Shown here: in pieces, positions 1 to 23,527 of the stretch
Layout of the letters: every line of letters starts with the position of its first letter
How positions within the stretch are numbered: the stretch's first letter is position 1
Origin: a virus
IMG/VR virus record: IMGVR_UViG_3300000242_000005
Location: 1 to 25,819 of that record
Length of the DNA: 25,819 nucleotides
Reading direction: 5' to 3' (one strand)
Notes under the pieces: model-generated
Databases searched by the model: none
What the model was told of the DNA's origin: nothing
The model's input: only the letters and a program-made list of their open reading frames with translations
Translations under genes and position numbers: made by a program

Positions 1-3000
1 GAAACCTCAACCTCAGGAGTAGCTTCAACAGTCTCTTCAACTAAATTTCCGTTCTCATCTACAACAAGCTGAGTAGATGTAGATGGTGAAGCGATAGCCT
101 CCTCTGTTGTGTCTAAAGAGGCCATCTTCTCGTCTAATATAGCTCCTGTCTCCTCATCGTTATCTACAAAAATAGATGCCCTTAAAAGCCTTCTATTGCT
201 CATCTTATCTAACTTGGCAAGAAACCCTTCCTGTGTATACTGCTTTCCGTTAATCATATACTTACTCAGCCCCTCACGTAGGTCATTCTTATTTCTCTGT
301 GTGTTGGTAGGACTTGGCACTCCCTGTCCCTCTAAGACTGTTTGTTGTTCTAGGGGTCTTAAAGATTTTGTTGATACGATATCATTAATCTCAGCGTTAA
401 TGTCTTTTATTTTTTTACTAAATACTTGCCTTCTATTTGTTGTAGACTCTAACGCATTTCTTGCGGCTAGTAACACAGTTAGCCTAGCCTCTATCGAAGG
501 GTCTACCACCTGATTCTTAGATGTGTCAACAACCTTAGTGTCACCAACACTCATCAGGTCACGAGCCTCTCTTCTTAGTCCTATGTTTTCTTGTATCCTT
601 TGGTTCTGCTCTTTACTTATATGGCCTAGCTTCTTCATTTTGTTTGACCAATTAGTAATCCTTTTATCGCTGACATCTAATAGAGCTATATAGTTCAAGT
701 CAGTAAGATTGTTTGCAAGTTCAAAATCAATCTTTGCCTTACTGTCGATATACGTATTTATCAACATATTAGGGGCTTTACTACCAAGTGCCCCAATCAT
801 TTCAGCCGCAATCTCTTTACCGTCAATTCCTTGACCTGCTGACATCTGTGCTGCTAATTCTCCTAGCCCTTCCATAGCAGGGTCAAAAACAAGACGTTCA
901 GATAGTCCATAAGCCATTCTTCTACCCACGGTTGCAAAAGCTCCCGGCTTAAACATTCTACCTGCCATACCTGTTGAAATAAAATCCATAAAAGCGATAG
1001 GTATACCACGCTTAAGTCCTATCTCAAATCCTTCGTCCCACACTTCTTGTTTCTGCAAGGCTTTTGCCATTGACTGCTCGTCCATAGGTTCGTACCCTTG
1101 GTTTCTAACCGCATCCATAACCGCAGTTGTATACTCCATAGCTAATGACGTTGCCGCCATACCCGCTCTTGTACCATAACTAAAACCTGACAATGCTCCT
1201 GCTGTTGTAGTTACTATACCACCCGGCCCTGTAACTAAACCTGTTGCTCCAACACCTGCACCTATTGCTATACCTGATGCCGCTCCTGCTCCCATTAGTT
1301 TCCATCCGTACGGAAGCATCATAGTTAGAGAGTTCATAGCCATACTTGCCATTAATTCTGCAGGGTCATTTTTAAAAGCGTTCCAAGACTCCTGAAATCC
1401 TCTAGCCTGATGCCATCTGTACTCAGCACGACCCTGTAAGCCTGTTTCACCTTTTTTTAGGTATTCAACTATTAGTCTAGCTGAATCTTTAACCTCACCA
1501 CCGTCCTGAAGGTTTCTTATTCCAAGAGCGTTCTCTAGAATTACATTACCAATGTGACCTGTTGCAAAGCCTTTCTCATATGCGTTTACAACAGAAGCAT
1601 AGTTAGAAACAAAGTCATCTCTAATTCCTTTATCTAACTTAGAATCAAACCAAGTTTCAGAAGTATTATATTTATTTACTGCTAACTCTGCATATCTCTC
1701 TACCTCACTTAGCTGAGTTATTAGCTCGTCATATATTTCTATTTGTTGTTGGGTTTTAGGTACGAAGTCGACTAACTCATCGGCACTTATCCCAAGGTTT
1801 TTTATAGCAGCATCGTTAAGAATAGAAGCCGCTTCCTTTGTTGCCTTATATTGAGTGGCTGCTTCTTGTGATATCTTACTAATTTTTTTTTGTATGTAAA
1901 CATCAAAGTCTTCTTGTAACTCCTGAAGGTCAGTATCTTGAACAACGTCTCTTAGGTTGTTGGCTTCGTCTGTTAGTTCTTGCTTTATCTTACCTGCATC
2001 TGACCTTCTAACACCATTCACGTAGAAGTGTTCGTAAGTCTCTTTCTCTTTTTCGTTTAGATATTTTTGTTTATACGGAGATTCTGATAAGAAAAACAAC
2101 TCCTCTCTAACTTCCTGAAGCCTGTCATATGCTTTTTTATATGAGTCATAGTCTTGGCCGTTCTCTCTAAAGAAATTGTATCTCTCAGCGTCTAATGTGT
2201 CAACCTCTTTCCAAGAGCCCTCAGCAAATTCTTGAGCATCCTCTTCGTTTTCAAAAGTTATAACCTCACCTCTTTTTTTAGCTTCATTAAAAGCGTCCAT
2301 ACCTGACTTCTCTTCCCACCAATATTCAGAACTACCATAATCAGTAGTCCCATCATTGTCACGAGGGAATAGTGTAGGGTACACAACAAACTTTCCATCT
2401 ACCTCACCTGATGCTAATAATACGGTTGACTCTGTTCCGTCTTTATTTATACGTGCATCTGTACGCATACTCCGAACCTTTATTGCACGATTCATTTCAG
2501 TCATCTCTGTGTCGGCTATTGCCTCTTCAGGTGTCTTTGCGTTGTTACTAAGAAATAATTTTAATTTTTCAGCTTCTGATTCGTCAGAGAAAAAAGTGTC
2601 AAGGTCAACCTCTAATGGCTCTTCATTATATGGGGAGTATACCATCATAGCGTCACCTACTCCTGACTTTGTAAATATAAAACCATACTTCGCATACAAA
2701 CTAGTGAAGTAAGGAATAGCATTATCCTCGTCTTGGTTTATAGCGTTAGCATTTGTTTGCTCTAAGGCTAACTTAAACTCTTCGTTATTAGCAAATACAT
2801 TACTGCTCTCTACAGTCTGACGATATTCCTCTTGTTCTTTTTGTTCCTGCTCTTCTTGTATTCTTACATCAAGCTCAGCTTGGTTATCAATAGCATCTTG
2901 AGCAACTTGCTCTCTTGTGCTAATACCTCTAGCAGCTTTTTCACTTTCTATTTTATCAAACTCTGCTTCTACAACTCTCTGATTATCACTAGCAAGTGCT

Positions 3001-3326
3001 CTGAAATTAGGGGAGTATGGCTCAGGTTCTACCTCAAATTCAGGTTCAACAATCTCAGGTACAATGTTAGTATCTGATTGCTCCAATCCACCACCTTCCG
3101 ATGCTGAAGCCAAAGTAATATCGTTTGGGTTTTTTTTTTCAACAACAGGTACATACATACCCTTAAACTCTTCAAATGTTTTATCGAAAAGACCATCTCT
3201 AGTTACAACGTCAAAAACTTTTGTTTGATATTCTTCGTCTTGAAACTGAACTTGAAACTCTTCAAATGACTTGTCATAATATCCATCTCTAGTTATAACG
3301 TCAAATAGTTTTTTAATTTTATCCAT
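1..3326 (-). CDS. Giant internal virion / ejection protein, C-terminus beyond the window
   Basis: An open frame of 1108 codons starts at ATG 3326 and is still open at base 1, so at least 1108 residues are present and the end is missing. Residues 8-58 hold two copies of a 30-residue repeat with the pattern FDVxTRDGxxDKxFEEF. A glutamate-rich linker and helical, charged sequence follow. Residues about 669-730 form a long Gly/Ala-rich hydrophobic stretch that could enter a membrane. Around residue 818 there is a segment beginning EGLGELAAQMSAGQ, of a kind I associate with large internal proteins of environmental phages. The visible end is acidic. It starts 10 bases after the 622-aa gene and is the third and largest of three successive putative virion-internal genes, the place of T7 gp16. 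I see no lytic transglycosylase or polymerase motif in the visible part. In crAss-like phages giant proteins in this region can carry a virion RNA polymerase, which cannot be judged here. The role is inferred from size, position and composition. Confidence 0.75.
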   Translation of the reverse strand, partial: MDKIKKLFDVITRDGYYDKSFEEFQVQFQDEEYQTKVFDVVTRDGLFDKTFEEFKGMYVPVVEKKNPNDITLASASEGGGLEQSDTNIVPEIVEPEFEVEPEPYSPNFRALASDNQRVVEAEFDKIESEKAARGISTREQVAQDAIDNQAELDVRIQEEQEQKEQEEYRQTVESSNVFANNEEFKLALEQTNANAINQDEDNAIPYFTSLYAKYGFIFTKSGVGDAMMVYSPYNEEPLEVDLDTFFSDESEAEKLKLFLSNNAKTPEEAIADTEMTEMNRAIKVRSMRTDARINKDGTESTVLLASGEVDGKFVVYPTLFPRDNDGTTDYGSSEYWWEEKSGMDAFNEAKKRGEVITFENEEDAQEFAEGSWKEVDTLDAERYNFFRENGQDYDSYKKAYDRLQEVREELFFLSESPYKQKYLNEKEKETYEHFYVNGVRRSDAGKIKQELTDEANNLRDVVQDTDLQELQEDFDVYIQKKISKISQEAATQYKATKEAASILNDAAIKNLGISADELVDFVPKTQQQIEIYDELITQLSEVERYAELAVNKYNTSETWFDSKLDKGIRDDFVSNYASVVNAYEKGFATGHIGNVILENALGIRNLQDGGEVKDSARLIVEYLKKGETGLQGRAEYRWHQARGFQESWNAFKNDPAELMASMAMNSLTMMLPYGWKLMGAGAASGIAIGAGVGATGLVTGPGGIVTTTAGALSGFSYGTRAGMAATSLAMEYTTAVMDAVRNQGYEPMDEQSMAKALQKQEVWDEGFEIGLKRGIPIAFMDFISTGMAGRMFKPGAFATVGRRMAYGLSERLVFDPAMEGLGELAAQMSAGQGIDGKEIAAEMIGALGSKAPNMLINTYIDSKAKIDFELANNLTDLNYIALLDVSDKRITNWSNKMKKLGHISKEQNQRIQENIGLRREARDLMSVGDTKVVDTSKNQVVDPSIEARLTVLLAARNALESTTNRRQVFSKKIKDINAEINDIVSTKSLRPLEQQTVLEGQGVPSPTNTQRNKNDLREGLSKYMINGKQYTQEGFLAKLDKMSNRRLLRASIFVDNDEETGAILDEKMASLDTTEEAIASPSTSTQLVVDENGNLVEETVEATPEVEV
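3153..3305 (-). repeat. Two tandem copies of a 30-aa (90-bp) repeat at the start of the giant protein
   Basis: Residues 8-37 and 38-58 share the pattern FDVxTRDGxxDKxFEEF at a spacing of exactly 30 residues. The DNA is also alike: two nearly identical 23-base stretches, differing at one base, lie 90 bp apart near 3283-3305 and 3193-3215. The second copy is incomplete. I recall similar short motifs at the N-termini of large Bacteroidota phage virion proteins, where they may be docking or packaging modules. No function can be read from the sequence. Confidence 0.85.
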
Positions 3327-3336
3327 AATTGATTTT

Positions 3337-5205
3337 CTAATCGTTTAATTCTAATGAAGAAGTACTATTTGTTTGGTTTAATATTTGTAACTTTCCGTCC
3401 GTTATGTCAAATATATCTTCCCGACTTTGAGTTTTTCTAGACATATTTAAAATTTTATTATACAATAATTCAGCTTTGTTTGCATCTAGATTTTCCAAGT
3501 CAATTTCCATAACAATTTTATCATCCTCATTTAGTATTTGCCCCTTTTGATTCATTGAATAATTTTCCAAGCCCGGCTGTTGCCTTATCATCTCGTTAAT
3601 ATTCGCACTTTTTTTACCTTGCACTACAAATTTATCAGGAGTGTATCCATACTTTTTGTTGGACTCTTTCCGTAACCTGTTATAAGCCTGAATATTAGTC
3701 TCAAATTCAGGTTCATCTTGTATATTATCTCCTATAGTATTTGAGGAAGGAGTACCATCTACCAATTTAAGTTCAATTAAAGCATCATCGAAATTTTCAA
3801 ATTGTTCCGTAACCCCTAAAAACCTGTTTGAATATGATTTAAGGAATTGAGTTTGGCTCATTTTACTCAGGTTTTCAATATTATAAGAAGGAGTTTCATC
3901 TATATAATTAATTATAATTCCGTCAGCAGTACGTGTTATATTTTTTATATTCGTTCCCGGCCTTGTTGATAATACGTTTATTGCCGTATTTAACTGTTCC
4001 TCATCACCGTTCCAAATATAGTTTATATTTTTTAATACATTAACCTCACTATTAAATTTATTATCTTCTTCTTTTTTGATTTTATCAGAAGCTGTCCTGT
4101 CTTTCCAATCGTTTACAGAAGCCACCTCTTTAGTTATGTTTGTTTTATTCCTAATGTCATTACGCATATAAGCCTTTACAGCTTCTTTTTGGTCTTCTGA
4201 AAAATTCATAACATATTTATCTCCCTGTCTTTCCACATAAATCAGTTCCGGGTTTTTTTTATAATCCGGTTTGTCAAATGTAAAGGTATAATTCTTACCT
4301 TTTCCTGTCGTGACAACATTTTCTGTGAGTATAGATGAGATATTATATTGGTTACCAAACACGGAATTTATAGCAGCATTTTCTGCTTCAAGATAATAAT
4401 TAATTGATTCTCTATCAGCCTCGCTAATACCTAAATCTTTAGCAATTTCAGCATCTAGTTTTTTTGTGAATGGGTTTAAAGACTTAATAAGCTGTCCTGC
4501 TTTTTCTCGTGTGCCTACTATTTTTTCAATTTGCGTCCAAGCTCCTGTCTCAGAAATAAACTTAGATGTCACAGCACCCACATCAAACTCATCATACTCA
4601 CCAAGTATCTGACCCTGCAATGAGCTTACAGCTACAAACTGATTAGGGTCTTTGGTTAGCTCTCTTAAACCTCCCTTAGAATATCTCATCATAGCTGCAG
4701 TAACCTTTCCTGTCTCAGGATTAATGGCAAGCTCGCTGTTATTAAAGTTTGCATATCCTTCCGCATTCTCCATTAAAAATGTCTCAAAACTCTGAGATGA
4801 TGTAGCTATATCTTGTGATTTCATACGCTCCATCTTTTTTGCGTATACCTCTTGGTAGTGTTCCATTAATGAGAAAGCTTGGTTTGTTCCGTCAACTAGG
4901 TTCTGACGCATTAATGTGTAGTCGTTTGGATTAAGCATACCGCTTTTTAAAAGTTGGTCTTGCATCATCATTTGTTTCTGAGCTTTGTCGCCAAACTTTA
5001 ATCCCCACTCTCTTATAGAGGTGCTCTCGCCTTGTGGCTGATTGTTCAGTTGGTTTTGGTATACACGACTTGCCTCATCAAAAGCTGCTTTTTTTTGATT
5101 TCTAAAATCCACCTCATCCTGAATAACCGCTGTAAGGTTACTTGCCGCTTCTGTCCAATTTATCTGTACCTGTGGGTCACGAGGTTTGTATTTATAGTAA
5201 CTCAT
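3337..5205 (-). CDS. Putative internal virion / ejection protein (622 aa)
   Basis: This 622-residue protein starts at ATG 5205, four bases after the stop of the 321-aa gene. It has no signal peptide or clear membrane segment. The first 150 residues are helical and rich in Gln, Lys and Asp, suggesting coiled coils. The rest is a mixed, polar sequence with many Asn and Lys residues. I recognise no catalytic motif. It is the middle member of a run of three genes (321, 622 and more than 1108 aa) downstream of the tail nozzle, which is where T7 places gp14, gp15 and gp16 and where crAss-like phages place cargo proteins. A structural role inside the virion is therefore the best inference. A solitary tail component is an alternative. 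Confidence 0.7.
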   Translation of the reverse strand: MSYYKYKPRDPQVQINWTEAASNLTAVIQDEVDFRNQKKAAFDEASRVYQNQLNNQPQGESTSIREWGLKFGDKAQKQMMMQDQLLKSGMLNPNDYTLMRQNLVDGTNQAFSLMEHYQEVYAKKMERMKSQDIATSSQSFETFLMENAEGYANFNNSELAINPETGKVTAAMMRYSKGGLRELTKDPNQFVAVSSLQGQILGEYDEFDVGAVTSKFISETGAWTQIEKIVGTREKAGQLIKSLNPFTKKLDAEIAKDLGISEADRESINYYLEAENAAINSVFGNQYNISSILTENVVTTGKGKNYTFTFDKPDYKKNPELIYVERQGDKYVMNFSEDQKEAVKAYMRNDIRNKTNITKEVASVNDWKDRTASDKIKKEEDNKFNSEVNVLKNINYIWNGDEEQLNTAINVLSTRPGTNIKNITRTADGIIINYIDETPSYNIENLSKMSQTQFLKSYSNRFLGVTEQFENFDDALIELKLVDGTPSSNTIGDNIQDEPEFETNIQAYNRLRKESNKKYGYTPDKFVVQGKKSANINEMIRQQPGLENYSMNQKGQILNEDDKIVMEIDLENLDANKAELLYNKILNMSRKTQSREDIFDITDGKLQILNQTNSTSSLELND

Positions 5206-5209
5206 AGTG

Positions 5210-6175
5210 TTAGTTAAAAGGGTTCATATAATCTATTGCCTGACCTGCTCTTGTTTCAATTCCTAATGCCTTTCTAAAATCTCGTGCCCACTTGGGGTCT
5301 TGTTTTGACATAAAAACATTAAACTGTTGTGTGGTTGGGTTGTCTATTATTTCAGTAATATCTACACCATCATATATATTAGTAGCGGGTAAAAAATCAG
5401 AAGTTGGCTCGTCATACAAAACTTCAGCGGTTGGAGCAACATAACCTGCCTTGCCTTTAACACCTAAACCTGATGTTGCTGCAGTCTTAATATCACCTTT
5501 ATTAAATCCTTCCTTATTAGTTTTATTATCTAGTTTTAATCCACTAATACTTTTATTTACGTTAGCTTGTCCGCCACCCTGTCTGTTAATTATTGCTGCC
5601 TGTCTAGCTCCTCCACTTTTAGCGTACAACGGAGCTGCTGAGGCTATTGCTCCTACTGTGTTTACAGCACCTTGAATCCCTTGGTTTGTCATCATAGCCG
5701 CCTCTTCTGCTGATGCCGCTGCTGCCTCTTGTGCTCCTGCAACCTCACCTAAGTCTAACTGAATACCTATATCTCTAAGCCTTGAATCCTCTTCAGCTTG
5801 TGCAGCCTCAAGGTCAAAAAGTCTATCGCTCTGTACGTCACGAACCTGACCCTGTGCCTCGTTCTGTGCGGCTAGAAGTCTACCTGCAACAGCACCTCCA
5901 CCTCTTTCGCTTTCAATACCTGCCTCAAGAGCCTGTGCCCCTGCTGATAATAAAGCCTCACGCTGTCTTTCAAACGGCTCTTTGTTAACAGATAAGACAT
6001 CCATATAATTTGTCTCTAGCTTCTTACGGGCTTCTGACATTTTATTTTTAACTTCGTTCTCTGCATCCTGTTGAGCTTTTTTAGCTTTGTTTGCTGAACT
6101 AAAAGACATTGCTGTCCCTGCTGCTGCTGCTGTTATTGATGCTACCGCTAATATTGATGTTAATGCTGCTGCCAT
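5210..6175 (-). CDS. Ala-rich internal virion protein with N-terminal membrane segment (T7 gp14-like by layout)
   Basis: The product is 321 residues and starts at ATG 6175, two bases after the cupin-like gene. Residues 4-24 are almost entirely Ala, Ile, Leu, Val, Ser and Thr and would form a membrane helix. Residues 28-150 are a charged, Ala-rich region of likely long helices or coiled coil. A second Ala-rich hydrophobic patch lies near residues 160-188. The C-terminal 130 residues are Gly/Asn/Asp-rich and less ordered. An N-terminal membrane helix followed by Ala-rich helices, next to two larger putative ejection proteins, is the arrangement of T7 gp14, which forms the outer-membrane part of the DNA ejection channel. 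Sequence homology to gp14 is not claimed. This rests on layout and composition. Confidence 0.7.
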   Translation of the reverse strand: MAAALTSILAVASITAAAAGTAMSFSSANKAKKAQQDAENEVKNKMSEARKKLETNYMDVLSVNKEPFERQREALLSAGAQALEAGIESERGGGAVAGRLLAAQNEAQGQVRDVQSDRLFDLEAAQAEEDSRLRDIGIQLDLGEVAGAQEAAAASAEEAAMMTNQGIQGAVNTVGAIASAAPLYAKSGGARQAAIINRQGGGQANVNKSISGLKLDNKTNKEGFNKGDIKTAATSGLGVKGKAGYVAPTAEVLYDEPTSDFLPATNIYDGVDITEIIDNPTTQQFNVFMSKQDPKWARDFRKALGIETRAGQAIDYMNPFN

Positions 6176-6177
6176 AA

Positions 6178-6675
6178 CTACTGTATTATTTTGTGTTTGT
6201 TAATTAGGTGTTCAGGAAGTTCTCTGAAATTCTCTGTGTACAACTCTTTTTCTGCCTCTTCAACTGTTTCTGAATCTGTCCTGTATACACACGCCCATAC
6301 ACAGTCCTCGTGCATATAAGCTATTCTCTGTGTGCCCATTTCAGTCTGTAAAACCATTGGTGCTTTTATTCTTTTTACCTCTGCTTTATCTGTAATAATA
6401 GACATCTCTCCACTCATAAAAAATGATGGATGATTTGTCTTGTGTATAAAACTTATAACCACCATACCCTTTGGCATAAATATTTCCCTTGTGTATACAC
6501 CATCTTTTATATGATGCTTTAGAGGCATTGACTCATCCATCTCAGGTGTGTGATGCTCTAGTGCTCCCGGAATTTCTTGTATTTGTTTTCTAAAATTAGC
6601 AATTCTTTCCCATAACATACCTGTATGTGAGCTTACATCTTCAAGTATTTTTATACCTTGGTCTTCTTCTAGCAT
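6178..6675 (-). CDS. Cupin-like conserved phage protein
   Basis: I place the start at ATG 6675, giving 165 residues. A TTG five codons upstream is possible, but the codons between are part of a promoter-like box. Residues about 55-135 have the pattern of a single cupin-type beta barrel: HHIKDGVYTREIFMPKG, then IHKTNHPSFFMSGEMSI, then a GTQRIAYMHEDCVWACVY segment. This matches a family I know from many tailed phages (REIxIPKGxxxxxxIHKxxHxxxxxxGxxxV, later EDxxW), usually annotated as hypothetical or cupin. The His residues in IHKTNH and MHED are candidate metal or ligand contacts, but no enzyme activity is established. It sits between tail and ejection genes, so a minor virion role is possible. 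The fold call is fairly secure and the function unknown. Confidence 0.75.
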   Translation of the reverse strand: MLEEDQGIKILEDVSSHTGMLWERIANFRKQIQEIPGALEHHTPEMDESMPLKHHIKDGVYTREIFMPKGMVVISFIHKTNHPSFFMSGEMSIITDKAEVKRIKAPMVLQTEMGTQRIAYMHEDCVWACVYRTDSETVEEAEKELYTENFRELPEHLINKHKIIQ

Positions 6676-6679
6676 ATAG

Positions 6680-6687
6680 CAAAGGTA
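6680..6687 (-). promoter_or_regulatory. Possible Bacteroidota -7 box TACCTTTG before the cupin-like gene
   Basis: On the minus strand TACCTTTG matches the Bacteroidota -7 consensus TAnnTTTG. It ends only four bases before the ATG at 6675, so transcription would begin at or beside the start codon and give a leaderless message. No TTG lies at the expected -33 distance. The short gap after the previous stop (6694) fits a local promoter, but a chance match in AT-rich DNA is possible. Confidence 0.3.
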
Positions 6688-6693
6688 CAAATT

Positions 6694-7497
6694 TTAAGGA
6701 TAACTTTTCATTACTTCGCTTTCTACTGCAAATAAATTTATTTTTTCTGTGGATGTGTTTACAATATCAAAAACACAGTAGTGACCTAAGACTCCGTGAG
6801 ACTCTGCAATTGAGTTCTTAATATAAAAAAAGAAAAGCTCTTGTCCTGAAATAGTAGTACTTCCTGTAATTGTAGTATCTATTACAACCTGATTAACACC
6901 TTGCTTTAAGTTTACATTTATCTCTTCTATCTGTCCTGCAAGTAATGGTGTGTTGCTTAGACTATTAATATAGTACATCATATCACCAACTGACATCATA
7001 GTGTCTAGCTCGATATCTATAGAGAAATTAATAATGTCTGCTGTACCTGTAATGGTTTCGCTACTTCCAATACCATTTAAAGAACGCAACGCATACTCGC
7101 TAGACTGTGCAGGAACAGTACCTGAGTTTCTTACAAAGGCATAGAATGATGCCTCCTTTTCGTCAAACCAACCTGCCTCAATAAATCCTGAGTCTTGTAT
7201 ATCAGTCTTCAACGTAACACCCCAAGCTGAATCTCCCTCTATGTTAATGGTTTTAAATAGTTTATTTTCAAGAGGCCCGTCATTAAACACAGACTGTACC
7301 GTACTTGTATACTGAACTCCGTAGAAATTGTTTCGAACCTCGTTGGTATTATGACGGTAAAGATTACCCCCGTTAAACGTATAGAAGTAATTATTCATAC
7401 CAATCATCCAATCAGGAAAGTAAGAATAAAACGAAGGCCACCCTTTAGCTCCTTCGTCATAAGTCAATGTATTGTTTGTATTTGTTGGTAAAGACAT
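6694..7497 (-). CDS. Conserved Bacteroidota-phage tail protein
   Basis: The gene encodes 267 residues from ATG 7497, preceded by the A/T-only leader typical of this window. The N-terminus contains DEGAKGWPSFYSYFPDW followed by MNNYFYTFNGGNLYRHN. I recall this pattern (KGWxSFxxYxPDxxxGMNNxFYTFxxGxLYxHN) in tail nozzle or stabilisation-type proteins of Bacteroidota phages, often near the end of a beta-propeller. Here it stands as a separate gene. The remaining 200 residues are beta-rich, with regular Thr/Ser/Ile strands and no catalytic motif. It lies two genes downstream of the 1616-aa nozzle, so it may be a tail-tip component that complements it. Precise function unknown. Confidence 0.7.
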   Translation of the reverse strand: MSLPTNTNNTLTYDEGAKGWPSFYSYFPDWMIGMNNYFYTFNGGNLYRHNTNEVRNNFYGVQYTSTVQSVFNDGPLENKLFKTINIEGDSAWGVTLKTDIQDSGFIEAGWFDEKEASFYAFVRNSGTVPAQSSEYALRSLNGIGSSETITGTADIINFSIDIELDTMMSVGDMMYYINSLSNTPLLAGQIEEINVNLKQGVNQVVIDTTITGSTTISGQELFFFYIKNSIAESHGVLGHYCVFDIVNTSTEKINLFAVESEVMKSYP

Positions 7498-7509
7498 ATT
7501 TTTATTTTT

Positions 7510-7683
7510 TTATGATGGACAAGATGGGCATACTTCTTCGTTAAGTAAAACACAATTAATCTGTCGTCTAACAGTAACACCATCAGAGTAATAACCATCT
7601 GACTCGCAAATAGTTAAATCCGCATCAGCGTATATTGCTGTTGAATTTGATAATGTTGTTCCGTCTAAATAATATATTGCCAT
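7510..7683 (-). CDS. Small 57-aa protein with C-terminal CPSC motif
   Basis: An ATG at 7683 opens a 57-codon frame ending at TAA 7510-7512. It fills the space between the nozzle and the 267-aa gene, with a 13-base A/T-rich leader. The order is: a strand-like YYLDGTTL start, an AIYADADLTICESDGYYSDG middle, then RRQINCVLL and a terminal VCPSCPS. I recall this layout (YxLxGxxLxxxTxxYxDxxLTxxxxDGxYSxGxxxRxxxxxVLLxxxxCPxC) as a short module found at the ends of Bacteroidota phage structural proteins. The good packing, the leader and the recognisable module support a real gene. A metal-binding or disulfide role for the three C-terminal Cys residues is only inference. Confidence 0.75.
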   Translation of the reverse strand: MAIYYLDGTTLSNSTAIYADADLTICESDGYYSDGVTVRRQINCVLLNEEVCPSCPS

Positions 7684-7696
7684 AGTTTATTTTATT

Positions 7697-10600
7697 TTAA
7701 AATTCACAATCTCCGTCAACAGACAGGTTATTGCTCCCGGGGTCTACTGAGCCTGTTAAAGCACAGAATGTGTCTGAATCATATCCGCTTGAGCCTCCTA
7801 TACCTTCAGTCCTAAATACTCCGTTGCAATCTGTATAAGAGTACTGTTGTGCTGAGCTTGCGTATGTAGACACAGTATATTGTAAGCAATTAACAGTAGA
7901 ATCAAAATTACAATTTGAAACATCACCACAGGTTTGAGTTTCATTAGAGTATAAGGTTGCGTTTGCGGTAACACCAAAGTTAATAATACGACCACAGTAA
8001 ACAAATGTCCCTGCACCTGCTCCTACTCCTTGAACATACTGAACAACTGAGTTAATTCCTATTCCGTTTTGGTATGTATCTTCAATAGTAAATTGTGCTC
8101 CTGACTCACAGTCTTCAAGTAAAAATATAGAACCACTTGCAGGGCAATTACAACAAGCTCCATTAGTACTACCGCTGTCGTAACATAAATCTATTGGTGT
8201 ACTATCCCTATAATCCCAAATAAGATATAAATACTGACCTGTAGTTGGCATATTAAAACTAGCAGTATACGCAGTATTTCCTCCTGTAGGAATAGTTATT
8301 GGTGTCGGTACTGTGCTTGCTAAAAGTAATGACTTTATCTGCGTGGTTGTATTAGCGTATAATATATTAGTTCTTATGTATCTAAAGTTATCTGAGTTAA
8401 TATTAAAATCATACGTATCAGTACTTCTCTTATTTGAACCTATTGTTATTGTTGCATTATTTGATGGAATAATGCCACCGCCTTGAGGCCCTTCAATTGT
8501 TTCATACAAAGAAACTATAGGACTTGGCCCTGATAAAAAAGTAACGCTAGATGAATGTAATGGAGACTGAAATGTTGAGTCTGTCCATCGGTATTCGTTG
8601 TGTATTGTCTTACCTCCGTCAGCATCATTATTAATGCTTACTAAAACAATAGTAATGGTTTCTCCTACAGGACAATCTACAGTTAGACTTACATCTATAT
8701 TATTTGTTGGTATTATACTAATTAAAACCTCGTCTACTAATACCTCATCTTTTGTGAATGTTAATACCCCACTTGTACTAACACTACCTGTAGTAGTAAC
8801 AACCCCATTATAAAGAGCTATAACCTCAAACGTTCCTGTCACAGGAAGCTCTACGGTGTAGTTAACATCAACCGTTCCAACCAATTCTCCTACATTATAA
8901 CAGTACTGATATCCAACATCTTTAATTACAAACGACTCTGTTATGCCACAGTTCTTGCATAAGTCAACTGTAGGTTTTTTAATTCTATTAGACGACAATA
9001 CAAACTCGTTCATATATGGGTCAAACGCACCTAGTTTCTGCGTTGTAAAAGTTTCATTAAACAAGTCCCTAAACCAAGTACGCATACCACTTGATGATAT
9101 TACCTGTAGCTGCTCGTTCTGAGCACTTGAGCCTCTTAAGTTTACAACAACACCTCTCTTGGCATCCGTAAAATATTTATCTGCACCCCACTCAGTAAAA
9201 CTTTCAGCATTGTTTGATATCCCAAACTCCTCTATCCTTGCAATCTGAGTTCCTAAAACTTCAGGTACTGATGTTAAAGCATTTCCTCCTGCTGCATCAG
9301 ACAATAAATTCTTACCTGCTAGTACATAAGATATCTTATCTTCTTGTAGCGATAATACATCAGTCTCTCTTGCAAATAATTTTCTAATAGGGCCAAACGA
9401 TGTCTCTAATTTTTTAAAGTTAAGTAGTCCACTATTAAATTCATTTAGTTTATTTATGTTTGACTCAGGGTTAAAAACTCCACTATAAGTAATGTCGGAA
9501 AACCTTCTTTCCTCTCCATATACTTTAGAGTCTGTTGTTGTAGCTCTGTTTCCTAGCACAAGTTCTTTGCCAACTATAGAGTCTTGAATCTTAAAACTTT
9601 CCGCACCATTACCAAACGCATAACAATTAAAAAAATCTGTCCTAATAATAGCAGGTAAGTTTGTAGAAATTTTTTGGTTTTGAAAATTACCTTGGTGTTC
9701 ACCCAATGAATTGATAGGATAAGACTCAGAAGACTCGTACCATAAATCAGGTGACGCATCTTGAGGGTCTGACTCAAAAATAATTGTACTGTCAGCAAGA
9801 GTTATAGATATCTCTACTTGTAAATTAGTTCGTCTTTTTTTTGATTTGTAACCTTTACTTCCATCAACTCTTAAAACAGGTCTACTATTCAAAGTCTGAA
9901 AATAAATGTTAATCAAAGCATCCTTACACTCTATTAGTGTTCCGGGTATTGTTATATATTCAAACTCAAAGTCATTAGGTTCTTTATTTGTTGCTTGTTC
10001 TCTTAAAGAATCTGAAATGTTATCACTATTAAACCAATTTTGAAAAGTAGAGTAAGTATCATTTGAAGTAAAATTAGCATCAACCTCCCAACTCCTATTC
10101 TGAACTTGAGATAAACTTGATGAGTTACCAATCCTTAGATTATTAATTTTTATATTTATCTTTGAGCCTGCAGGTATAACTATATCTTCGTATGTTACAA
10201 CTCCCGCATTATCTACAACTTTTCTATCTACAGGGTAGTTAACAGTAGGGCATTCTCCTGCTCCTGAATCTGTTTTAGCAGATAATTCTCCGGGTGCTAT
10301 TACTGAGCCGGGCTTTAATTCTGTAGAAAAATTATTTGCTTGAAGTTTCATATAAACACCTGCGGGAACAGATAATTCGTTACCCTCACTATCTTGTGGT
10401 GGGGGGTCTAAAAAATCTTGTGTCTGTGCCTTTTTTTCTAATACTGTAGTCCAAGTACAATTATTTCTAGCACCCTGTGTATCTGTTTTTACAATTAACT
10501 CATCTCCTAATTCTATTTTTGTTGAGTTCTGACCTTCAATCAAAAAGTAATCCCCTCCCGAAGTTGGGTCTCTAAAAAAGAAATTAGAGTAAATAACATT

Positions 10601-12547
10601 ATAACCTTGTTTGTCAGGTTTAATAACAAACTTGTAACGTGTTGCCCAATAAGGTGCTATCTGAGAAGTTGGTATATTTACTTGTATATTATTTTGAGTT
10701 ACTGAGGCAGAGCAAGGTATTTGTACTGTGTTTTGTTCGCTAACCAATGCAGTAGTCATACGGTTAAACTCATCCATATATACTATGCCAATCTCATAAC
10801 CCCTGTTGCTATGTAAACTTTTTGGGTTTCCAACCTCTTGAAAAGAAACTAAAGCTAAGTCTATACCATAGTATTCATAAAATCTTTTAGTTATTGCATT
10901 CCCTGTTGGGTCGTCCACATATTCCATTGCAGGAATTTGAAAACTTAATACATTAGAGCCTATTGCAGAAATAATTCGTATAGGTTCATTTGCTGAGTTA
11001 ATACCACTACTGTACTTAAATGCAGAGCCACCTGAAACTGTTACTTCATTTGAAACTGAACAATTAAAAAAATCTGTAAAGGTGCTTCCATCACAAGAAG
11101 CAGCTACAGTCTGTATAGTAGACGCTTCACCTATTCTTTCTACAAAATCCGGGAAAATAGAAAGCTCATAAATATTATTAAAATCACTCGTTAGTGTATA
11201 ACTAAACTCTATATCTGTAGCCGCTAATGTATCAGTAGGGCTTGGAGAATCTCCACCCCAACTAGAATTAGAAAACCTTAGTGATATATTGATAACTGAA
11301 CCTATTTTAAGTTCTATTCCTTGAAAATTTATTTGAAGTATAGAATTGTTAACACTTGTATTAGGTGTTGAAAAATTATATACACCTGTACCTAAAGCAT
11401 AAGCAAGTTCACTTCTACCAATATCTTTAGAATCAAAGGTTGTAACATACTCCAACTTAGTAGTATTTCCATTTAAGTCTTTTAAATTATATCCCTCTAA
11501 ATAGTTTCCGTACATAAGCCTGTTTCCCATAAGAGTCTGAGAGTCAGCTAGTCTAGGTACGTTGTCAAAAAGCCTTAATATTTCTGAAGATGGGAGTACT
11601 GTAAATATTTTGCTGTTATCAAAAATAAATTTTTCATCGGTATTGTCAGATATTCCTTTCTCTTTCTTGTTTATTTTTTCTATAATTTTAATTACAGAAG
11701 AGTTCATATCCTTAAATAAAAGGTCAATAGATTTTACAAGTGGCCCTCCTGTATTATAAGTTACATTAACTGCGTTCCTAGTGTTCAACATACCTTCGTT
11801 TAATGCAGTTGAGGTGTCGTAATTAAATACCCCCGGTATAAATGAAGGTTCACTAAACTGAGATGTTGCAGAGTATTCTCCATCCTCATACCTATACCTA
11901 TATGCAAAACAAATAAACCTGTCCTCTAAAAAATTACTTGTAGTACTACTTACAACAGGCTCAATAGTAGGAGATGTTGTGGGAGGTTTTTTAATAACAA
12001 GCAATGACTCTAAAGAAAAAGTATCAACACCTGATTCAGGATTGGTATAATTTTTTGTTACATTTATTTGTTTTGGGTCTGTATAGTTGTCTGTAAAATA
12101 TAATAATTCTTCTATTTTATTTACCCCTGTTATAAGGTATTTTGAATTAAAATTTAATGTCGTGTTTCCATCACCCAACCCATTATTTACAGAAATAATG
12201 TGATACACAGTACTATTTGTTTTAGTGTCAAAAGAAACTATTAAATCAATTTTACCTGTAGATGAAGAAGTAAAGTTACTGTCGTGTATAAACCAATACA
12301 AGGTTTCATTTGCACCATCCTCATAAGCACCAATACATCTAGCTGATGAGCTTAAAGGATTTCCTTCAAAAGAAATACTTGTTAAAAGCTCATTACCTTT
12401 TGTGTTTTCTATAACACCAACCTCTGAACCTTCAGTAGAACCCATACGAACATTCAACGCATCAACATATTGTCCGTTAGGAATAATTCGCTCATCTAGC
12501 GACTTGTTCATTATACCCTTAATAAAATTTCTAGATGTGTTTGCCAT
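7697..12547 (-). CDS. Tail nozzle / muzzle protein (T7 gp12 / P22 gp10 type), giant form
   Basis: At 1616 residues this is the largest complete gene. It starts at ATG 12547, one base after the adaptor gene's stop. The N-terminus has FIKGIMNKSLDERIIPNGQY, then NVRMGSTEGSEVG and IENTKGNELL, a signature I know from crAss-like and related Bacteroidota phage stabilisation (muzzle) proteins. Around residue 1175, AFDPYMNEFVLSSN matches the YDPYxxEYVLS strand of the nozzle beta-propeller. The body is beta-rich with no transmembrane segment. After about residue 1230 the sequence changes to short Thr/Ser-rich beta modules. The last 165 residues hold twelve Cys, including ACCNC. T7 gp12 is 794 residues and P22 gp10 472, so the extra length suggests added domains, possibly receptor-binding. 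The nozzle assignment is strong. The role of the C-terminus is inferred. Confidence 0.85.
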   Translation of the reverse strand: MANTSRNFIKGIMNKSLDERIIPNGQYVDALNVRMGSTEGSEVGVIENTKGNELLTSISFEGNPLSSSARCIGAYEDGANETLYWFIHDSNFTSSSTGKIDLIVSFDTKTNSTVYHIISVNNGLGDGNTTLNFNSKYLITGVNKIEELLYFTDNYTDPKQINVTKNYTNPESGVDTFSLESLLVIKKPPTTSPTIEPVVSSTTSNFLEDRFICFAYRYRYEDGEYSATSQFSEPSFIPGVFNYDTSTALNEGMLNTRNAVNVTYNTGGPLVKSIDLLFKDMNSSVIKIIEKINKKEKGISDNTDEKFIFDNSKIFTVLPSSEILRLFDNVPRLADSQTLMGNRLMYGNYLEGYNLKDLNGNTTKLEYVTTFDSKDIGRSELAYALGTGVYNFSTPNTSVNNSILQINFQGIELKIGSVINISLRFSNSSWGGDSPSPTDTLAATDIEFSYTLTSDFNNIYELSIFPDFVERIGEASTIQTVAASCDGSTFTDFFNCSVSNEVTVSGGSAFKYSSGINSANEPIRIISAIGSNVLSFQIPAMEYVDDPTGNAITKRFYEYYGIDLALVSFQEVGNPKSLHSNRGYEIGIVYMDEFNRMTTALVSEQNTVQIPCSASVTQNNIQVNIPTSQIAPYWATRYKFVIKPDKQGYNVIYSNFFFRDPTSGGDYFLIEGQNSTKIELGDELIVKTDTQGARNNCTWTTVLEKKAQTQDFLDPPPQDSEGNELSVPAGVYMKLQANNFSTELKPGSVIAPGELSAKTDSGAGECPTVNYPVDRKVVDNAGVVTYEDIVIPAGSKINIKINNLRIGNSSSLSQVQNRSWEVDANFTSNDTYSTFQNWFNSDNISDSLREQATNKEPNDFEFEYITIPGTLIECKDALINIYFQTLNSRPVLRVDGSKGYKSKKRRTNLQVEISITLADSTIIFESDPQDASPDLWYESSESYPINSLGEHQGNFQNQKISTNLPAIIRTDFFNCYAFGNGAESFKIQDSIVGKELVLGNRATTTDSKVYGEERRFSDITYSGVFNPESNINKLNEFNSGLLNFKKLETSFGPIRKLFARETDVLSLQEDKISYVLAGKNLLSDAAGGNALTSVPEVLGTQIARIEEFGISNNAESFTEWGADKYFTDAKRGVVVNLRGSSAQNEQLQVISSSGMRTWFRDLFNETFTTQKLGAFDPYMNEFVLSSNRIKKPTVDLCKNCGITESFVIKDVGYQYCYNVGELVGTVDVNYTVELPVTGTFEVIALYNGVVTTTGSVSTSGVLTFTKDEVLVDEVLISIIPTNNIDVSLTVDCPVGETITIVLVSINNDADGGKTIHNEYRWTDSTFQSPLHSSSVTFLSGPSPIVSLYETIEGPQGGGIIPSNNATITIGSNKRSTDTYDFNINSDNFRYIRTNILYANTTTQIKSLLLASTVPTPITIPTGGNTAYTASFNMPTTGQYLYLIWDYRDSTPIDLCYDSGSTNGACCNCPASGSIFLLEDCESGAQFTIEDTYQNGIGINSVVQYVQGVGAGAGTFVYCGRIINFGVTANATLYSNETQTCGDVSNCNFDSTVNCLQYTVSTYASSAQQYSYTDCNGVFRTEGIGGSSGYDSDTFCALTGSVDPGSNNLSVDGDCEF

Positions 12548-12548
12548 A

Positions 12549-13475
12549 TTACTTAATCCACTTATCCTGACCTCTCAGGTTCATTAATAATCTACCCGGA
12601 TGTATATCACTAATTCTTATTTTTGCGTTCCTTAGAAGTGCTCCCTTGCGTTTTCTAGCTCTTGTTATAATATACTCCTGAACATTAAGCTTAGAGTTTA
12701 GTATTGAGAACTCAATAAATGCGTAAACATATTCCTCAAATAGCTTGTTAACATTAACCCTAGAGTCATCCCCACCTTCCATTCCATCTGAAACGTACTC
12801 AAGGACAGCTACTTGATTAGCCATACTTGAACTAAAGTTTATTACACCTGCCGCTTTATCAATATTAAATGTTGGGTTTGCATTTGCAGTTTCTGTATTT
12901 AATCCAAAATCTGCTCCGATACCAAACTCAAAATACCAATTCCCATCACAGTTATATCCCGGAAGTCCATTGAATTGTCCATTGTTTTGGTCTAGGTATA
13001 TACTCTGACCCATACCTACAATTCTATCGTAATCAAGATTAGAAAACTCAGGTCTTAGTATATTACCTTCTATGTCAAATAAAATCTTTCCTGTATTATC
13101 TTGAAGATATGCAGCAGAAGACTGTGTTTGAATGTTTTGACTTAAAGGAAATAATACTCCGTTTCTATACTGAGATATCCTAACCCAATTAACATAATCC
13201 TGAGGAAGTACAAACCTAAGTTGATTGTCTACGTTTAGTTCTAATATTTTTATTTCTTTAAAGGCATCATAGTTTAACTCTTGAATTGCACGTTTTGCGT
13301 GAAACAATACTCTATATCTCTCTTCGTTATTAACTAGGTTATGATTCCCTGAGTACATCAACATAAAATTGTTAACTATATCGTATAAAGATATATACTG
13401 ATACGAACCCCAATTGTTATCTATTGGTGCTACTCCTCCATTTTCGTAATACTGATACTCTGATATATATGCCAT
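12549..13475 (-). CDS. Tail adaptor / ring protein (T7 gp11 / P22 gp4-type)
   Basis: This 308-residue protein starts at ATG 13475, which shares one base with the previous stop (TAATG), so translation is probably coupled. Residues 28-100 carry the signature of the adaptor family in Bacteroidota phages: a helix SLYDIVNNFMLMYSG, then RYRVLFHAKRAIQELNYD, then LELNVDNQLRFVLPQDYVNW. Such proteins form a twelve-fold ring under the portal. The last 40 residues are basic (ITRARKRKGALLRNAKIR, ending in LRGQDKWIK) and could contact DNA or the next ring. It lies directly before the nozzle gene, as in T7 (11 then 12). The family call is firm. Which ring of the collar it forms cannot be decided here. Confidence 0.85.
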   Translation of the reverse strand: MAYISEYQYYENGGVAPIDNNWGSYQYISLYDIVNNFMLMYSGNHNLVNNEERYRVLFHAKRAIQELNYDAFKEIKILELNVDNQLRFVLPQDYVNWVRISQYRNGVLFPLSQNIQTQSSAAYLQDNTGKILFDIEGNILRPEFSNLDYDRIVGMGQSIYLDQNNGQFNGLPGYNCDGNWYFEFGIGADFGLNTETANANPTFNIDKAAGVINFSSSMANQVAVLEYVSDGMEGGDDSRVNVNKLFEEYVYAFIEFSILNSKLNVQEYIITRARKRKGALLRNAKIRISDIHPGRLLMNLRGQDKWIK

Positions 13476-17926: not shown

Positions 17927-20362
17927 TTATCTTGGATTGAATTCTGCTAAATCAAATCCATCTAAACTATCCTCGTTTGATTCAAAATTCATTGGAGGTA
18001 AGTTATTTTTTCTTTGATTTATCATTTCACTTTGCTCTGTATTTTGCTGACTAATCCTACTAGCCTTAGCATCTTCTCGTTGGTCTTCTCTAGCTGATAT
18101 ACTTTCCATTTCCATAGTTCTCAACTGCATATTTAAATTAAACTCCTTATCCATAAGCACACCTTTTAATTCAGCCTCTTTTTGAAGTTTCATTATTTGA
18201 CCTTGTATGAGACTTTCATTTATTTGCATTTTAGCTTGAGACTCCATTTGAATACCTTGAGCTTCAATTTGAGCTTGAGCCTGTTGCTGTTGCATTGCTT
18301 GTTGAGCCTGCATTGCCTGTTGCTCTGCTACTAATCTATCTTCACGCTCTTGCTTTGATTTTCTTTTTAATTTTAAAAGTTGGTTTGCAGTCTTAATGTT
18401 TCTAAGCTCTCTTATGTCAATAGCATCCTCTAGGTCTATTCCCCCCTTAGATAGAGCCACTTGAATATTTTGCTCTAACTGAGCTTTTTGTTCTTCATCA
18501 GGTGCAACCTCTATAAATATACCAAAGTCATAAATATATAGGTCAGATATCTCTCCTAAGATACTTACATTATATTTTCCAATTTGGTTTATAAACTCAT
18601 CCTTAAAATCAGCATACTCTAAAATATCTGATATCCTATAAGTTAATGCCTGAGCAAATGCTCTGTACATATATAAACTTCCTTCAAGTATATGTCTTGT
18701 AGCTGTGTTTGAATTTAATGCCGCTAACTTCTGAACACCAACCAAAGCATTAGGGTCAGGAGAACTTCCGTCTCTAGCTTCATTTAAGCCTGTTACAGAG
18801 CGAATCATCCCTAAGTAATGATTATAGTTACCTATAAGCATTTGTGTCTTAGAAGCTCCCGAACTGCTTGTAAGTTGTGTAATAGGTACTTTACCTTGAT
18901 TGTAGTCGCCATCTTGAGTGTAGCTCCTACCAACAACACTACCTGTTTGGAAGTATAATCGTAAAGCATCTGCAGGATTATAAGCATTACCTGTACCCAA
19001 GTCTACTTCATTTAATCCATCGGCATCAATAAACACACCATCAGGAACAACCTTAGATATAACCTGCTGAAGTTTTAAATGAGTAATCTGAATAAGGTCA
19101 GCGAATGGTATCATTCGTCTAACCAAAGATTCAATAACACCCTTGTACATACGAGGTGCTACCGCTACATAATTTGGTATAGCGTGCTGAGATGCTGACT
19201 TAGGTCTAACCATATTTTCAGCCATCTCCCACTTCAATAATATGTTTGTACCCATAACCATTATACCCTCATACCATACATCAATTGTTTTAGATACCTT
19301 TTCAAAGTTTCCTTCGTTAAGCATATCTTCGGGTGGATTAAATGTGTCATCCTTTTGAACCATTTTTATTGCACCGGAATCATTTATCTTTTTCTTATAA
19401 GTAAACGTGTTTGTTGTTTTGTAGTTGAAGTACATTAAAGTACAAGTGTCTCTATAAAATATATCATTATCGTAATACTGTGCTGTATTGTAATAATCCA
19501 TCCACCCCTGTGAGCTTTTAGAAATTATTTCTAAATCCTCATTAGTCAAAGATTGGTCAATTTTCATTAAATCTGTAATAGGAACTGTCTTAACCTCTCC
19601 CCAATAAAAACAATCTTTAAAGTGTGGGTCTTCAGTATAACTGTATACTACATTTGCAGGGTCTACATAACTAATCTTAACTCCTGAACCGGGAAGAAAC
19701 TCGTGCTTACCTACAGAGATACCTATAACTGTTTGGTCATAGTCAAATCTTTTTCTAGTGTCTACATAATGATTGTCTTCAAAAATAGTATTAACAGCTT
19801 GCTCTTCCGCAATCTCAATTGCAGGCTTGTAATTTAACTGCATATACAAAGCCAACTCCTCATCTGATTCAGGTAATTCTTCAGGCGAAGTAACAAAAGG
19901 ATTTGCTCCTGTTTTTTTTTGAATTGTTTCTAGAATAGGTTTAGCAACCATCTGTCCTTCAATAAGGTCTTGATACTTGCTTCGTTTTTGCTGAGACATT
20001 GCGTCCTGTGCAAAGGCTTTAACTTTAAATAATCTGTCAGACATCCCATTAACTACGATATCTACGAATTTAGGAAGTATAGGAACAGGTGTCCAATCTA
20101 GGTTAAGATAACTTAAGTCCCCATCTATTGCTAATTCGTTTTTATATTTACCAACAGGTTGCTCCCCCCTTGCGTAAAGTCTAAGCCTATGGAAAGTTCT
20201 CCATTGGTCATAGAATCTACATTGAGTCCCGTCTTTCTTAAACCATTCGTACTGAATAGCCTGACCGACTTGTAAGCCAAACACATCAGTCTTCTTCTCA
20301 GAATCAGATACAAATTGACTTGGAAAACCTGTCGATGTTATGTTTACATTAACATCTCTCAT
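17927..20362 (-). CDS. Portal protein
   Basis: This 811-residue protein starts at ATG 20362, overlapping the terminase stop by four bases (ATGA), so the two are probably translated together. The N-terminal region has RFYDQWRTFHRLRLYARGEQ and LDWTPVPILPKFVDIVVNGM, which I associate with portals of crAss-like and related phages. The middle third is the mixed helical stem and wing region (NAYNPADALRLYFQTGSV). Residues about 670-760 form a long Gln/Ala-rich helix with many QAQQ runs, which fits a C-terminal barrel or crown reaching into the capsid. The usual size in crAss-like phages is near 800 residues. Twelve copies would form the DNA gate at one vertex. The call is supported by order (terminase, portal, scaffold, capsid) and sequence. 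Confidence 0.9.
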   Translation of the reverse strand: MRDVNVNITSTGFPSQFVSDSEKKTDVFGLQVGQAIQYEWFKKDGTQCRFYDQWRTFHRLRLYARGEQPVGKYKNELAIDGDLSYLNLDWTPVPILPKFVDIVVNGMSDRLFKVKAFAQDAMSQQKRSKYQDLIEGQMVAKPILETIQKKTGANPFVTSPEELPESDEELALYMQLNYKPAIEIAEEQAVNTIFEDNHYVDTRKRFDYDQTVIGISVGKHEFLPGSGVKISYVDPANVVYSYTEDPHFKDCFYWGEVKTVPITDLMKIDQSLTNEDLEIISKSSQGWMDYYNTAQYYDNDIFYRDTCTLMYFNYKTTNTFTYKKKINDSGAIKMVQKDDTFNPPEDMLNEGNFEKVSKTIDVWYEGIMVMGTNILLKWEMAENMVRPKSASQHAIPNYVAVAPRMYKGVIESLVRRMIPFADLIQITHLKLQQVISKVVPDGVFIDADGLNEVDLGTGNAYNPADALRLYFQTGSVVGRSYTQDGDYNQGKVPITQLTSSSGASKTQMLIGNYNHYLGMIRSVTGLNEARDGSSPDPNALVGVQKLAALNSNTATRHILEGSLYMYRAFAQALTYRISDILEYADFKDEFINQIGKYNVSILGEISDLYIYDFGIFIEVAPDEEQKAQLEQNIQVALSKGGIDLEDAIDIRELRNIKTANQLLKLKRKSKQEREDRLVAEQQAMQAQQAMQQQQAQAQIEAQGIQMESQAKMQINESLIQGQIMKLQKEAELKGVLMDKEFNLNMQLRTMEMESISAREDQREDAKASRISQQNTEQSEMINQRKNNLPPMNFESNEDSLDGFDLAEFNPR

Positions 20363-22867: not shown

Positions 22868-22967
22868 CTTTAATCCTTTTAGATTTTCTTAATTTATGAC
22901 CAAAGAAATCAAAATCTTCGTCATCCTTTATTTCATCGTATAGAATATCTTGCCAATCTTTTCTCAT
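22791..22967 (-). CDS. Small 58-aa acidic/basic protein, overlapping both neighbours
   Basis: ATG 22967 shares an ATGA with the stop of the GroES-like gene and opens a 58-codon frame to TGA 22791-22793. The N-terminal half is acidic and aromatic (MRKDWQDILYDEIKDDEDFD), followed by FFGHKLRKSKRIKDDIKRNK. The end is Lys/Gly-rich. The last 77 bases are read in another frame as the start of the 94-aa gene. The ATGA junction and the fact that it fills the space otherwise left between the two genes support it. Function unknown. DNA binding or packaging regulation would fit the charge pattern but is only a guess. Confidence 0.65.
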   Translation of the reverse strand: MRKDWQDILYDEIKDDEDFDFFGHKLRKSKRIKDDIKRNKAKDNKGRAQGGGAINKGS

Positions 22968-23527
22968 AATATTACAGTTATTTGATGGTCATACATACGG
23001 TATAACTTTTCGCCATCAACCTCAAACTCATATTCGCTGTCAGGCTGAAAGCAAACCTTATCACCTTTATTAACACCTTTACTAATCAAGTATTTATTAG
23101 GATACTTAACTAATCCAACTAGGGGTTCTTCTTTTGTGTTCTTATAAAGATACGAATCTTCTTTTGGTATAGGTTTAATAAAACAATACCTATCATATGT
23201 ATTCCATTTTTTTCCATCGTTATATAAAAAAAATTGGTCAGGCTCTATAAAAAACAAGTTGTCCTTAAAAAAACTTCTACCGCTTTTTCTAGCACCCTTA
23301 ATGTCGTTGTAAAATTTAAATACGTTGTGGTGTACAAGAAGCTTATAACCTTTTTTTATTGGGCCGTCATACCCTAGTGGGACTTCCATAACTATAGCCT
23401 CTCGATTAGAGAACTTATGGTCTTCTTCGGATGTGCTTGTTATAAACTCAATCCCACCAATATCTTTGGTGTTATTGTATCGTCTACCTTTAGAAGGAGT
23501 AACTATAAAAAAAAACGGTGATTTCAT
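22964..23527 (-). CDS. GroES-like (co-chaperonin-type) phage protein
   Basis: This 187-residue protein starts at ATG 23527, 14 bases after the 75-aa gene. Two regions resemble the GroES barrel. Residues 42-101 run REAIVMEVPLG, then IKKGYKLLVHHNVF, then a FFIEPDQFFLY strand. Residues 136-187 run PLVGLVKYPNK, then VNKGDKVCFQPDSEYEFEVD and a closing HQITVIL. Both follow the GroES plan of a GxVxxxP strand, a KxGDxVxF strand and a terminal DQI-type strand. I recall similar proteins in environmental phages. T4 gp31 is the established case of a phage GroES substitute needed to fold its capsid protein. The duplicated layout and lack of an obvious IVL-type mobile loop make an actual role with GroEL uncertain. 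The fold is inference. Confidence 0.6.
   Translation of the reverse strand: MKSPFFFIVTPSKGRRYNNTKDIGGIEFITSTSEEDHKFSNREAIVMEVPLGYDGPIKKGYKLLVHHNVFKFYNDIKGARKSGRSFFKDNLFFIEPDQFFLYNDGKKWNTYDRYCFIKPIPKEDSYLYKNTKEEPLVGLVKYPNKYLISKGVNKGDKVCFQPDSEYEFEVDGEKLYRMYDHQITVIL

Follow-up and report, generated by a model that had tools for sequence, protein, structure and literature searches.

A probable DNA-ejection cassette with a polyvalent-type giant protein in a flavobacterial podovirus related to Crassvirales

In the Schitoviridae phage N4, three consecutive genes encode a small, a medium and a giant protein, namely gp52, gp51 and gp50 (150, 644 and 3500 aa), and the giant gp50 has a predicted membrane-spanning N-terminal domain followed by a multi-domain remainder (PMC12633501). 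Phage T7 encodes a set of three proteins, gp14, gp15 and gp16, of 196, 747 and 1318 aa. In crAss001, a polymerase cargo is encoded after the muzzle gene and two cargo genes (PMC10172136). Another group of large proteins, the polyvalent proteins, consists of multi-domain chains which are encoded beside virion genes and which a zincin was proposed to process (Iyer et al. 2017, PMC5512222).

The stretch of DNA analysed here (the window, 25,819 bases) is a linear fragment of a marine phage whose base 1 is the contig end. At its left end it encodes three proteins, named A, B and C below, which are taken, with a probability of about 0.75, to form the DNA-ejection cassette of a crAss-related podovirus of flavobacteria in which the giant C is a polyvalent-type carrier.

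The three-gene set and its genomic surroundings

The genes considered are the following:

5210-6175, minus strand: protein A, 321 aa, an open reading frame whose product has long helices behind a hydrophobic Gly/Ala N-terminus; putative small ejection protein
3337-5205, minus strand: protein B, 622 aa, an open reading frame; putative medium ejection protein
3-3326, minus strand: protein C, first 1108 aa of a giant, an open reading frame open at the window edge; putative polyvalent-type carrier
6694-7497: 267-aa protein with a crassvirus muzzle C-terminal domain (crAss_MUZ_C, PF25729, E 2.6e-17)
7697-12547: 1616-aa protein (phrog_14478)
17927-20362, same strand as A, B and C: portal
20359-22608, same strand as A, B and C: terminase

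According to the ORF coordinates, the genes of A, B and C are separated by 4 and 10 bases on the minus strand, in agreement with the first-pass annotation, which had described three consecutive genes of 321, 622 and over 1108 aa with gaps of 4-10 bases. Since the contig ends at base 1, the gene of C is truncated there and does not terminate there. A, B, C and their order are kept across dozens of unrelated contigs, which indicates that these are real genes and not chance ORFs. Protein A carries an N-terminal hydrophobic 19-mer that is also found in 34 of 38 homologues, and protein B is predicted to be mostly helical, with beta segments at low confidence. The AlphaFold models of B and C (pLDDT 43 and 38, respectively) are too low in confidence for fold comparison. 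Pfam and PHROG scans run directly on window C gave zero matches, PDB sequence searches with C, the C-terminal block of the giants and family A gave nothing meaningful, and promoter- and terminator-like sites in window positions 1-13000 were not above chance.

The cassette directly follows the muzzle genes and shares its strand with the portal and terminase genes. In the phage collection, the terminase and portal have relatives in MW202828 (73-75% identity), in the Flavobacterium elemo phages, in Maribacter phage Panino and in podoviruses of Cellulophaga and Tenacibaculum, and no Crassvirales records were found among the terminase and portal matches. Judged from its terminase, its portal, the 1616-aa protein and the muzzle C-terminal domain, the phage is a podovirus related to Crassvirales but outside it. 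As the terminase and portal relatives are flavobacterial phages, its host very probably belongs to the Flavobacteriia.

Several other features of the genome can be mentioned. The crassvirus-type muzzle seems to be split into the 1616-aa and 267-aa genes; it is likewise split in MW202828, with a 183-aa gene in between. A gene coding for a GroES-like co-chaperonin (phrog_13932, 22964-23527) adjoins the terminase gene, as in elemo, phi38:1 and Panino, and GroEL is additionally carried by elemo and MW202828. A tandem repeat (24128-24727; 153 nt x 3.9, 84% matches) lies inside a 433-aa ORF (23773-25074) of no clear family.

Architecture of the giant protein

Complete relatives indicate what could lie beyond base 1. 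Indeed, MW202828 (60,850 bp, circular) encodes A, B and C in the same order (302, 644 and 3859 aa), and its giant aligns to residues 1-1000 of window C (E 2e-78). A scan with the front block only, in which the C-terminus was not used as a condition, gave 45 non-redundant complete giants of 2,751-3,671 aa from the best 80 of 169 loci; within this sample, a C-terminal block of ~1,400 aa is present in all 45 giants, and homologues of A and B are encoded upstream of all 42 giants with enough upstream sequence. From a scan with the C-terminal block, 48 non-redundant complete giants were obtained, 43 of them with room upstream, and both A and B were found by BLAST in 37 of these 43 loci, with a spacing of -4 to +68 nt. 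Across sets, complete giants measure about 2,350-3,975 aa. By comparison with these sequences, window C is expected to be the N-terminal part, about one third, of a giant of about 2,800-3,700 aa whose C-terminus is missing, and the missing portion would follow the plan of the relatives, i.e. a middle, a zincin and a tail. In a simple scan of viral contigs with the last 133 residues of window C, no encoded relative was found. The only near-identical contig (L001) also stops inside the giant gene, which is broken there by a stop or a frameshift.

The front block comprises about 1,050 residues, in which the following features are distinguished:

3147-3326, minus strand: C residues 1-30 and 31-60, two tandem 30-aa repeats in a register common to most relatives
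2205-2456, minus strand: C residues 291-374, a domain of ~85 aa that is optional in the family and absent from several giants
627-1376, minus strand: C residues 651-900, the best-conserved part of the front block, retained even where giants have lost most of the remaining block
1137-1322, minus strand: C residues 669-730, a Gly/Ala-rich hydrophobic stretch, candidate membrane-inserting segment
3-326, minus strand: C residues 1001-1108, where the front block ends and the variable middle begins, from the alignment to relatives

The 30-aa repeats which the first-pass annotation had seen at the start of C are indeed there as two tandem copies; at the nucleotide level they appear as 58 nt with 81% identity, 90 nt apart, in exactly two copies, and the protein has a self-match score of 75, while 200 shuffles reach 41 at most. 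They had been called unusual, but they prove to be a conserved hallmark of the giant family. Indeed, 44 of 50 giants (the window, MW202828 and 48 others) have a self-match in their first 110 residues that exceeds all 200 shuffles, the commonest period being exactly 30 residues, and in a second, partly overlapping set, that of the front-block scan (best 80 of 169 loci), a repeat self-match is found in 34 of 45 giants, with periods of 30-33 or 47. Matches to the profile of the 30-aa repeat lie exclusively at the start of giants or, where these are truncated or split, at the start of the front part. Most giants have this 30-aa 'GYxKSxEEF' type, and others have an unrelated 47-51-aa 'TPNG' repeat instead, likewise in two copies. 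That the duplication is kept while the sequence type of the repeat changes suggests that this duplicated N-terminal tag is an address or docking signal.

The hydrophobic Gly/Ala stretch reported earlier at residues 669-730 was also recovered, with 44% Gly+Ala (16% for the entire C) and 2 charged residues out of 62; residues 680-698 are the only hydrophobic 19-mer over threshold in window C. The ~85-aa domain matches the stand-alone gp26 of the Schitoviridae phage Littlefix (E 3e-6), a protein of 147 aa (L027, 11809-12252) encoded between N4 gp69-like and gp68-like genes. Residues 921-1085 align to the nearest giants, for example to L041 at 45%; an apparent drop in conservation past residue 1000 was rejected as an artefact of the sequence cut points. 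In L059, L090 and L081, the giants are broken into at least two ORFs inside the front block or close to it, by either a sequencing error or a true gene split.

The giants consist of conserved ends and a variable middle. Alignability was computed pairwise among 31 giants whose front block is complete, using segment limits from own profiles; the border between front and middle is approximate, the nearest relatives still aligning up to window residue 1085. On average, two giants can be aligned over a fraction of 0.78 of their front (median length 1,039 aa) and 0.84 of their tail (median length 1,439 aa). For the middle (258-1,226 aa) this mean fraction is 0.19, and 56% of ordered pairs share nothing there at E 1e-3. 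In brief, the domains recognised in the middles include: (i) a GNAT domain above the Pfam cut-off in L091, L078 and L179, (ii) an LPD23 domain in L158 (29.1 bits for a cut-off of 27), (iii) an ART-PolyVal match in L087 that stays below the cut-off (28.5 bits versus 31.2), (iv) a DUF3293 domain in L073 and in the elemo phage, and (v) a DUF7178 domain in L096 (E 4.5e-34). For many of the middles, Pfam gives no match. The middle of L012 was read as kinase-like by inspection only, and this reading is not claimed.

Furthermore, a zincin motif, HE[FMV]GH, is present at the start of the C-terminal block in 41 of the 45 complete giants from the best 80 of 169 loci. Among the 48 giants of the C-terminal-block scan, the zincin H, E, H and a downstream Glu (third zinc ligand) are invariant (48/48); the HEFGH count is biased in this set because the motif was among the search patterns, and the downstream Glu lay outside the selection. 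On the basis of the HExGH...E motif, the giants of relatives are predicted to carry a zincin metallopeptidase. The suggestion that the giant might hide an enzyme other than a polymerase is thus supported for relatives, which have a zincin, GNAT and ART-like domains. A relative of the zincin region is also encoded in a Bacteroidota genome, that of Spirosoma fluviale (L111, 8001-8660; 26%, E 1e-13).

Comparison with ejection sets and polyvalent proteins

That A, B and C could work as an ejection set is proposed because of the anatomy they share with the sets of N4 (PMC12633501), T7 and crAss001 (PMC10172136). N4 gp52-gp51-gp50 is a closer anatomical match than T7 gp14-gp15-gp16. Indeed, N4 also has three consecutive genes in the order small, medium and giant, and its gp50 contains one HExxH motif, resembling the giants of the window family; in contrast, the N4 giant bears the virion polymerase, and no N4-type polymerase was found in the window-family giants compared. 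No phmmer match was found for gp50, and the deep profiles of A, B and C gave no hhalign match to gp50, gp51 or gp52. The crAss001 proteins gp45, gp46 and gp47 resemble A, B and C by their position after the muzzle gene, and gp47 has a C-terminal HExxH (HEAFH); they differ by the absence of profile homology and by the polymerase genes gp49 and gp50, which have no counterpart here. A homology to crAss gp45, gp46 and gp47 seen by eye was rejected by profile comparison, initially with thin profiles and later with deep ones, the latter giving less than 1% for all three pairs. Proteins B and C have no sequence homology to the proven ejection proteins of T7, N4, P22 and crAss001, and the comparisons gave no clear sign of descent from the T7, N4 or crAss set.

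It is unlikely that the genes encode a classical T7-type core, in which C would be a gp16-like protein that forms the channel, cuts peptidoglycan and carries no effector payload. The T7 set does have the same gene order, similar relative sizes and a hydrophobic N-terminus in its smallest protein, as in the small proteins here, and family A matches T7_gp14 more often than any other Pfam model (4 of 43 members, best 6.2e-5), with 18.4 bits on window A for a cut-off of 27. However, the giants of the window family (about 2,350-3,975 aa) are two to three times larger than that of T7 and have a zincin and enzyme domains, and neither window C nor the complete relatives gave a Pfam match to a lytic transglycosylase. 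Moreover, hhalign of T7 gp14 with the deep A profile is negative, as are the comparisons of gp15 and gp16 with the deep profiles of B and C, and phmmer with T7 gp14, gp15 and gp16 finds nothing. The echo of T7 gp14-15-16 heard in the first-pass annotation holds for order and size; in sequence, it is limited to the sub-threshold Pfam match of A.

Less probable still is that C is a tail fibre, an adhesin or another external structural giant. Tail-fibre and muzzle genes neighbour the cassette, and long repetitive proteins are often fibres, but C has no fibre domains and contains the hydrophobic Gly/Ala segment, and its relatives have a zincin inside the chain and enzymes of an intracellular type (GNAT, ART-like), which make no sense outside the cell and thus argue against an external fibre. 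Least probable of all is an N4- or crAss-type set whose giant would have a virion RNA polymerase beyond base 1, as first proposed for its end: in N4, the last gene of a small-medium-giant series encodes a 3,500-aa virion polymerase, and in crAss001 the muzzle gene and two cargo genes are followed by a polymerase cargo, but no N4 or crAss RNAP homologue is encoded in the loci compared, the N4 polymerase region has no match in the giants from the C-terminal-block scan, MW202828 and the isolates, complete giants have no conserved DxDxD and hold GNAT, ART-like or DUF domains in their middles instead, and the complete relative MW202828 has no recognisable N4- or crAss-type polymerase.

The reading of C as a polyvalent-type carrier draws on several traits shared with polyvalent proteins (PMC5512222). 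Like these, the giants are multi-domain proteins of variable architecture encoded among virion genes, here directly after the muzzle genes; complete relatives unite disparate activities in a single chain (GNAT, ART-like, DUF3293 and LPD23 domains, together with a zincin recognised by its motif), and LPD23 in L158 is a curated polyvalent-associated Pfam domain above cut-off. They differ from polyvalent proteins by a fixed front of ~1,050 aa with a two-copy repeat and a fixed tail of ~1,400 aa, neither of which is recognised by the Pfam models searched, and, unlike polyvalent proteins, they are firmly tied to two small ejection-type genes.

Proposed mechanism and evidence from virions

In the mechanism proposed for the cassette, A, B and C would be packaged together in the virion. 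After adsorption, A would insert into the cell envelope and B would lengthen the conduit with it, as N4 gp52/gp51 and T7 gp14/gp15 do, and C would then be threaded through the A/B conduit. The front block of C, with its repeats and its Gly/Ala segment, could be involved in packaging and in passage or membrane anchoring. The zincin metallopeptidase, by self-processing, probably cleaves the C chain into working parts, after which the middle, with its exchangeable host-modifying enzyme domains, would act on the host; the conserved helical tail would close C. More tentatively, the giants might serve as a delivery chassis, much like a polymorphic toxin system, in which a fixed front (duplicated tag and membrane segment) and a fixed tail (zincin and helical domain) would bring an exchangeable middle of host-targeting enzymes into the cell, the repeats being the packaging or ejection address.

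If the proposed mechanism is right, a large and mostly uncultured group of aquatic flavobacterial podoviruses uses an N4-like injector of three proteins to deliver swappable effectors rather than a polymerase. The testable handles would then be the binding partner of the duplicated N-terminal tag, the release of the payload by the zincin after entry, and the effect of the exchanged acetyltransferases and ADP-ribosyltransferase-like domains on the host in the first minutes of infection.

Virion proteins have been detected by MS/MS in two related phages, according to GenBank notes: gp099, gp100 and gp101 of Cellulophaga phage phi40:1, and gp120, gp121 and gp123 of Cellulophaga phage phi18:3, which occupy the positions of A, B and C in these phages. 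The deep profile of A matches a Cellulophaga/elemo/Panino family that includes phi40:1 gp099 (96.6%, E 5e-10), and that of B matches the family that includes phi40:1 gp100 (91.6%, E 8e-7). The giant profile is linked to the elemo giant via the zincin region only (76%, E 2e-5), and the front block of window C has no detectable profile link to phi40:1 gp101. A, B and C are thus very probably packed in the phage particle, as seen in relatives and, for the giant, mainly from its position, and they would be the first to be injected into the host. The first-pass annotation had also treated the three genes as one set, and they do form a conserved cassette adjoining the muzzle genes, with related Cellulophaga triads that are virion-borne.

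The triads of phi40:1, phi18:3, elemo and Panino resemble that of the window by the profile homology of A and B and by the same order after the muzzle. They differ by their giants, which are mostly shorter (about 1,690-1,935 aa) and unalignable to the window front block; the elemo giant (3,694 aa) matches the window family in the zincin region. The Panino giant (L008, 16229-21718) is annotated as a 'tRNA methyltransferase', a domain that the Pfam scan does not find in it. Finally, the phi38:1 record (L006, NC_021796) cites 'phi18:1_gp100/gp101', but just 65 features are annotated for phi18:1; the proteins meant are probably phi40:1 gp100 and gp101, which were detected by MS/MS.
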